A stretch of DNA of 64,000 nucleotides, from the NCBI GenBank assembly GCA_963457665.1, contig OY735212.1, positions 58,395,538-58,459,537 on the forward strand, in the 5' to 3' direction. Below are positions 39,724 through 40,895 of this stretch, in pieces. The number at the start of each line of letters is the position of its first letter. The first letter of the stretch is position 1. Source of the DNA: Thysanoteuthis rhombus (Eukaryota > Mollusca > Cephalopoda > Oegopsida > Thysanoteuthidae). The notes under the pieces are model-generated. The model was not told the DNA's origin. It was given only the letters and a program-made list of their open reading frames with translations, and searched no databases. A program made the translations under genes and the position numbers.

Positions 39724-40895
39724 CATCATCATCAGTTCTTTTTGTCCATTGTTGGACATAGAACTTCCTGAGGATTCAGCACACCTTTCTATCATGGACA
39801 TTGTGGAGCCAATACTTTTTGGATTTGTCTAGTTTGTCTCTCCATCTTGTATTCTGCTGGCCTTGGTTTTGTGTGTGATTTCTTGGGATCCATGTTGTGA
39901 GTTGTGATGTCCATCGGTGGTCTGCCATTTCAGTTTTCTAATGGATTTTATGATGTCTTGGACTCCTGTTTTCTCCCTGATTTATTGTGCTGTCTTATGA
40001 TCTCTCCATTTGAGGTTGAGCACACTATTTATTTCCTGTCCCACCATGGCAAAATATGATACAAGGTCGGGGCTTAACGTGGGAAAATAGGCGCAACCCT
40101 TGAAAAATAGCACCAGCTGACGCGACTTTGGTTGCCAAGCGACCACAGAAGCTAAAACAACCTCCACTACGAAAGCGTCCACTTGGGGACCTGCTCCTTT
40201 AAGTGCAATGGAGCAGTGCTGCCCCAGGGTGCCGTATTCCCTGCAGCTGGGCTGATTAATAATGGGAGAGCCCAAGTTCAAGTCCAAAGGCCTCCGATGC
40301 ATGTAGCAAAGCGCAGCCTTAGTAAAACCTCATGGGCTAACACTTTGCATCAGCGCACTTGTTCTGTGATGCCAACCACAACACAATTTCTGGCCCATTC
40401 GATGGGCAAGTGTTAGTACCTGCGCCTCGGTCTATGCTGTGGAACAGATACTACATCTTGATCCTGCCGAAAAGGCCAAAAAAGTGGGGGACTGAGCATG
40501 CTTCTCTCATGTGCATGTTGCATGGTTCTCAGTTTGCGGATTTGTCTCTTGGTTCGGTTCCATGTTTTAGCTCCATAGGTGACTATTGGGAGGATGCATT
40601 GGTTGTATACCGTTTTTAGGATCAATAGGAAATTCTTGTTTTTGAAGGCTGAGCTTGCTCTGTCAAAGGCGTGCCATCCAAGAGTTATTCTTTGCTTGAT
40701 TTCCTCTTCTTTTGAGTGTTTCATGGGGGTTTCACAGGGTCCATGGGAATTTCCACAGAGTCAAAAGCTTCCTTGAATAAAGATGGTTCATGGTCAAGCA
40801 GCTTCTTCTAAAGCCAACTTGCTCCCACATTTGGCTTTCGTCTAGTGTTTTTGTAAAATGTTTGTAGATGCAGTTTATGAATACATCATAAATAT
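39724..40895 (-). mobile_element. RTE-like LINE copy interrupted by U2-headed retroposon
   Basis: The 3' part lies at 39724-40022. The element resumes at 40493 with the codons for MQHAHERSML and NQCILPIVTYGAKTWNRT, up to KEEEIKQRITLGWHAFDRAS at about 40690. Beyond ~40735 upstream RT codons appear (FKEAFDSVE motif A complement at about 40755; KTLDESQMWEQVGF near 40820-40870), so the segment with the FADD motif is deleted. Intact order apart from that deletion and the 470 bp insertion. Confidence 0.85.
40023..40492 (-). ncRNA. U2 snRNA-headed retroposon (SINE-like), inserted in RTE
   Basis: Read on the minus strand, the head 40477-40441 contains GGCCTTTT, then GGC, GATCAAG and TGTAGTATCTGTTC. 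This is the order of the 5' end of U2 snRNA: stem I, then the branch-site-pairing GUAGUA region. After it the sequence leaves U2 and forms other structure (hairpin GCCCATTCGATGGGC at about 40393-40408). The body is clearly GC-richer than its surroundings. The insert is bracketed by TGAGCA at 40017-40022 and 40493-40498, and the flanking RTE sequence reads through when it is removed. Its 3' end (minus sense) is GGGACAGGAAATAAATAGTG. It is a retroposed RNA copy and probably not a functional spliceosomal RNA; no Sm site or U2 3' stem-loops are evident. Confidence 0.65.

Follow-up and report, generated by a model that had tools for sequence, protein, structure and literature searches.

SINEU is the closest known kind of element to the one described here, a comparison that draws on its description. 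Kojima is said to have described it in 2015 as SINEs with U1 or U2 snRNA heads, added recurrently; its range is reportedly crocodilian, it reportedly prefers insertion into one Mariner family, and a Tx1-type LINE is said to have been proposed as helper. SINEU is one of the four SINE groups of Repbase, as passages of PMC5753468 put it, and both SINEU and snRNA heads are cited in passages of PMC8010984 and PMC7245038. The LINEs Keno and Utopia target U2 genes, with a 3' junction at U2 nt 39, and tandem insertion has been reported for Utopia (passages of PMC4640811). In the window, i.e. the whole stretch of 64,000 nucleotides of Thysanoteuthis rhombus DNA that was analysed, positions 40025-40483 of the minus strand are one copy of an abundant, dispersed SINE-like family.

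The insert in the RTE copy and its family

The copy lies within a split RTE LINE. The window has an intact RTE copy at a distance of 2.5 kb; relative to it, about 476 bases are extra, since the left flank is offset by 2498 and the right flank by 2022 to the intact copy, and the GC content of 200-base windows is 0.49-0.53 inside the insert and 0.19-0.43 in the surrounding windows; the GC-richer insert splitting an RTE copy that had been described in the earlier note is thus borne out. From 40483 to 40025 (minus strand) it aligns to nt 2-460 of the 463-nt family consensus. The TGAGCA said to bracket it is indeed found at 40017-40022 and 40493-40498, yet is not simply a fresh duplication, because TGCTCA(ACCTCAC), whole or partial, is also the 5' leader of copies outside RTE, e.g. 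at loci L103 and L123. The parts of the locus are as follows:

39744..40009, minus strand: RTE LINE copy, downstream of the insert on the coding strand, like other RTE copies (offset 2498)
40017..40022, minus strand: TGAGCA (read as TGCTCA on this strand), RTE target sequence marking the element's 3' junction; the same RTE site is used at other loci
40025..40066, minus strand: 3' tail of the element, core nt 419-460, ending AAATAAATAG (consensus alignment)
40067..40163, minus strand: region of core nt 322-418, aligning to host U1 nt 76-164; a hint only
40201..40212, minus strand: TCCATTGCACTT, the same 12 nt as in host U1 at nt 63-74, where stem-loop II has its loop; a hint only
40304..40357, minus strand: U4-like segment, core nt 128-181, corresponding to U4 nt 6-60 (putative 5' stem-loop and kink-turn)
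40358..40441, minus strand: linker between the U2 and U4 parts
40442..40481, minus strand: U2-derived head, core nt 4-43, corresponding to host U2 nt 6-46
40484..40498, minus strand: 5' leader and target duplication (TGCTCAGTCCCCCAC), by comparison with the leaders of other copies
40499..40617, minus strand: RTE LINE copy, upstream of the insert on the coding strand (repeat family D14, offset 2022)

The 32-nt junction between the U2 part and the body has 3182 genomic matches at ≤3 mismatches (reversed control, 0), and a U4-like 33-mer has 2725 (control, 0); both counts are lower bounds, because copies diverge from the majority consensus by a mean of 13% (77 copies). A search of the host's own genome (2.73 Gb, 514 contigs) gave 49 matches, 74-100% identical, in 40 scored loci among 5612 candidates, and copies are present on most large contigs. 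From the list of 100 exact junction places, 60 sequences were fetched, a set that favours copies with an intact junction; both ends are reached in 43 of these 60, and the element is about 460 nt long. A second set of 20 was taken from a list of 100 exact U4 places and favours copies whose U4 part is intact. Although the U4 part was the sole criterion for this set, 15 of its copies begin within core nt 1-9 and five are 5'-truncated; the head scores at least 22 in 14 of the 15. As expected of a SINE, the repeat is short, dispersed and non-coding, and its ends are constant across many copies; the copy number supports the earlier reading of a dispersed SINE-like family rather than a single copy, and the many copies sharing a U2-like start and a common end, which that reading foresaw, do exist. 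It did not include the U4-like part, the preference for certain sites, the frequent adjoining of units or the sister family at U2 genes, all described below. Viral contigs gave no match to one family pattern.

Insertion is site-preferring, not random. Clustering of the flanks of 80 loci placed 13 copies in one repeat (here the second repeat) and eight in RTE, seven of these at a single site (TGCTCAACCTCACATGG) and one (L085) elsewhere; the same RTE site was seen by eye in at least nine of the 30 best own-genome matches, a set biased by the query. Where second-repeat copies have a visible downstream flank, 8/10 start at about CATCCAGTACC. Flank repeats scoring ≥10 were found in 11 of 43 end-to-end copies vs 151 of 2000 mispaired flanks, a control that is raised because copies share targets. 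Target duplications of the LINE type, a mark of SINEs, are therefore found, though not in all copies; the earlier note had proposed looking for them at each copy. The leaders at the 5' ends include TGCTCAACCTCAC, from RTE, and CCCATCC.GCACC, from the second repeat, and target-like leaders also occur outside those repeats (CTCAACCTCAC in L103 and L123, CCCATCCTGCACC in L129); 5' ends therefore pick up target sequence. Another unit adjoins 27 of the 64 copies with a 3' end (20/45 plus 7/19), and 37/64 are without one; adjoining units would follow from copies that bear their own target at the 5' end.

Relationships of head and body to snRNAs

The order of U2-like elements first noticed in the head is present. 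In the consensus, the head matches nt 6-46 of host U2; within it the GATCAAAGTGTAGTATCTGTTC block is identical to host U2 at 22 of 22 positions, including a host-specific extra A that human U2 presumably lacks. The 30-copy consensus scores 31 against host U2, a score reached by 0/2000 shuffles (best, 21), and for each of three consensuses the head-to-U2 score was reached by 0/2000 shuffles. A profile made from 77 copies picks up all four U2 genes tested, at E ~1e-6. Alignment, shuffles and profile thus agree on a head from U2, a head from U1 or U2 snRNA being what defines SINEU. Against the Rfam U2 model, with its cut-off of 46, the single copy in the window scores 16.2 bits (E 0.82), while the host U2 genes gave 46 scored matches, all above cut-off.

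Beyond the U2 head, the body of the element carries a U4-like 5' stem-loop: core nt 128-181 aligns to U4 nt 6-60, the 5' stem-loop with its kink-turn, and TAGCCAATGAGG is common to element and U4, with the kink-turn motif kept. In copy L010, U4 (E 1.4e-4) and U2 (E 0.0078) are the top two among 4227 Rfam families. An Rfam scan of 20 loci (69 kb) found a U4 match at E ≤10 in 17/20, at the core position, the best at 28.3 bits (E 0.02), and a U2 match in the head of 4/20; a scan of 20 loci (13 kb) at E ≤5, with loci that came from the junction set and were chosen with a preference for copies that look older, found U4 in 4/20 and U2 in 6/20. Every hit in these scans lies below the U4 gathering cut-off of 46 bits (RF00015), 28.3 bits being the best. 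The alignment score with human U4 was reached by 0, 0 and 0 of 2000 shuffles for the three consensuses, and that with host U4 by 0, 1 and 0 of 2000; with a scheme that makes long gaps cheap the support is weaker (2/1500 shuffles, p 3e-3). The 77-copy profile finds the host U4 genes weakly (E 0.002-1.1, 7/9 genes), and with the reversed control there was a single match (E 0.03).

In the U4-like stem 86.4% of cells pair (48 copies) vs 19-47% for slid versions. Covariation there is mixed: 24 cells have both sides changed vs a shuffled mean of 14.8 (reached in 1/500), and neither the pairs with a double change (3) nor the pair types (17) are above shuffles. Among 43 copies, with CpG positions and the selected 32-mer excluded, the best conserved blocks are one within the linker (0.958), GTCGGCTGGAGCCATTTT (0.941), the U4 kink-turn block (0.941) and the loop resembling U1 (0.935); the mean is 0.826. 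The linker has no match to U1, the 3' part of U2, U5 or U6.

A U1-like segment in the body is a hint only. The 12-mer TCCATTGCACTT recurs without mismatch in host U1 (nt 63-74), and core 322-418 is collinear with U1 nt 76-164. For the 30-copy consensus the U1 alignment has p 8e-4 to 0.09, depending on scheme and U1 copy (8e-4 to 0.05 by scheme for U1B, core nt 322-418), and for the 60-copy consensus p 0.13 and 0.38; U1 was listed neither by the nhmmer profile search nor by the Rfam scans of family loci. It was accordingly set aside as a third component and kept as a hint. U5 and U6, tried as components with the human sequences, are unsupported by alignment and shuffles. Separately, host U1 genes L153 and L154 are both above the U1 cut-off and read CTATTTCTAAG at the position of the human U1 Sm site, AATTTGTGG.

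Several other features were seen near snRNA genes and copies. SINE copies lie beside a U4 gene (L069:2059-2530, 450.9 bits) in an array on C35 with a period near 2.1 kb, and a 5S rRNA-like match (L007:846-962, 50.3 bits vs a cut-off of 38) lies near another copy. A long near-palindrome at L106:42-229 matches Rfam MIR4208 at 88.8 bits, under its cut-off, and is perhaps a DNA transposon.

A sister family and a LINE-like insert at U2 genes

Beside U2 genes, the profile of the window's family also picked up its own tail, which there belongs to a sister family, whose homologous tail lies directly at nt 1 of a U2 gene in L038 and L039; the tail common to both is core nt 419-460 (nhmmer E 1e-9). The window's own family was not seen inside a U2 gene, whereas this tail-sharing relative was. 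In L039 (family at 1093-1500) the order is the tail of another element, U2 nt 1-54, body, the family's tail and a complete U2 gene that begins at nt 1; L038 (family at 1695-2099) has the same order, with a ATTTGGATAAATAAA tail ahead. The sister family is younger than the window's U2-headed family: among its 86 matches, 72 are at least 93% identical. These matches come from 39 loci scored out of 743 candidates; an array on C1 (15545630-15554719) has its units spaced ~410-420 bp apart. Its U2 nt 1-48/54 may be either a target duplication or a built-in head, since another element's tail precedes it in L034, L038 and L039. One dispersed copy of the sister family directly adjoins an older U2-headed unit at its U2 nt 39. 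A mosaic, L062 (1-637, beside a U4 gene), consists of a tail, a U2 head and a first 100 nt like the sister family (78%), and continues into the U4/U1-like part of the window's family.

A LINE-like tail is likewise found at U2 nt 1 in L031, L034 and L038. L034 (1-838) has U2 nt 1-48 after a ATTTGGATAAATAAA tail and then an insert with long open frames, while in L031 about 60 nt of ATTTGGATAAATAAA tail separate a whole U2 gene from promoter-like sequence that includes the first U2 nucleotides. In the stretch downstream of the L034 break, L155 has a zinc knuckle frame (E 5e-4) and L038 (2100-3194, on C35) a zf-RVT frame (E 6e-4), both below the Pfam cut-off; two other frames there have no Pfam match. 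The L038 frame has 424 relatives, and many of the 120 listed carry a reverse transcriptase domain (RVT_1). The L034 insert, L155 and the L038 pieces are probably one U2-linked LINE read in pieces (C35:48276900-48282000), with 1.9 kb separating L155 from L038, and presumably of Tx1 affinity. Tail similarity does not single out a helper LINE, the SINE tails resembling the LINE-like tail at p 0.51 and 0.09, neither being significant.

Origin of the U2 head and comparison with known systems

A relative of the window's family sits at U2 nt 1 and shares its tail, the head corresponds to U2 nt 1-46, and the leaders of other copies are derived from their targets. The reading that we prefer, with a probability of roughly 0.6, is that the family gained its U2 head by inserting at a U2 gene and being transcribed from that gene's promoter, helped by a LINE that targets U2. 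Through target-primed reverse transcription, and with the machinery of this LINE, probably a Tx1-like one, an ancestor would have landed at a U2 gene in the sense orientation; transcribed, as we suppose, from the U2 promoter, its RNA would have begun with U2 nt 1-46 ahead of the body, and the chimera would then have spread. The later 5' leaders (TGCTCAACCTCAC and CCCATCC.GCACC) and the adjoining units may reflect the same reading-in of upstream target, and the U4 part may have been gained in the same way as the U2 head. The sister family suggests how snRNA hybrids arise, because it is seated at the start of U2 genes. This is the point on which a second reading, possible in our view and yet doubtful, falls short: if an enzyme working on SINE RNA had jumped to U2 or U4 snRNA by template switching, the chimeras then becoming masters, no stay in a U2 gene would be needed, but the position of the sister family at precisely U2 nt 1, behind another copy of U2 nt 1-54, would be left unexplained, as would target-site sequence in the leaders of other copies. 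A head that ends at an internal U2 position and the module exchange visible in L062 fit such switching, as does the recurrent addition of U1 or U2 sequence reportedly seen in known SINEU.

That the U4-like (and U1-like) parts arose by chance or by convergence on a selected hairpin, leaving simply a U2-headed SINE, we hold to be unlikely: all scores stay under the Rfam cut-offs, U1 is not robust and the stem covariation is mixed, but the shuffles (0/2000 three times with human U4; 0, 1 and 0 of 2000 with host U4), the rank of U4 as best of 4227 families on L010, the shared TAGCCAATGAGG and the kept kink-turn all speak against it. Spread mainly as tandem or satellite DNA by recombination, and not by retrotransposition, is very improbable, since copies on most large contigs, the 37/64 without an adjoining unit and flank duplications above the mispaired control weigh more than the 27/64 that adjoin another unit and the C1 array with its ~410-420 bp spacing. 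Capture at a U2 gene, our preferred account, could also be extended to the whole retroposon lineage, built stepwise from U2, U4 and U1 since its helper LINE homes on snRNA genes; we regard this extension as rather unlikely. Were it true, each stay at an snRNA gene would add the 5' part of that gene and lend its promoter, and the kept U4 kink-turn together with a U1A-type loop (TCCATTGCAC) would let the RNA borrow snRNP proteins.

The acquisition of new heads by SINEs is seldom observed as it happens; this one genome contains a mosaic and a younger family at U2 genes alongside the dispersed family with its U2 head, and the capture of heads and promoters from snRNA genes therefore becomes testable. 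The family resembles SINEs with tRNA, 7SL or 5S heads in being short and dispersed, with flank duplications and a defined tail; unlike them it has a U2 head, and ARAGORN found no tRNA gene in 60 loci. Passages of openly licensed literature contained no U4-bearing SINE, which is weak evidence of absence. The LINE-like tail at a fixed place in the U2 gene, and insertion directed to U2, recall Keno and Utopia as passages of PMC4640811 portray them, and the junction of the dispersed sister-family copy at U2 nt 39 is the one given there for both; unlike theirs, the junction at U2 genes is at nt 1 here (L031, L034, L038 and L039), so that the LINE-like insert (L031, L034 and L038) differs from them in its 3' junction. 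With SINEU the present elements have in common a sense U2-derived head, several families and a preferred insertion into one repeat family; they differ in the U4-like body segment, in their targets, which are RTE and a second repeat, and in having a sister family at U2 genes.
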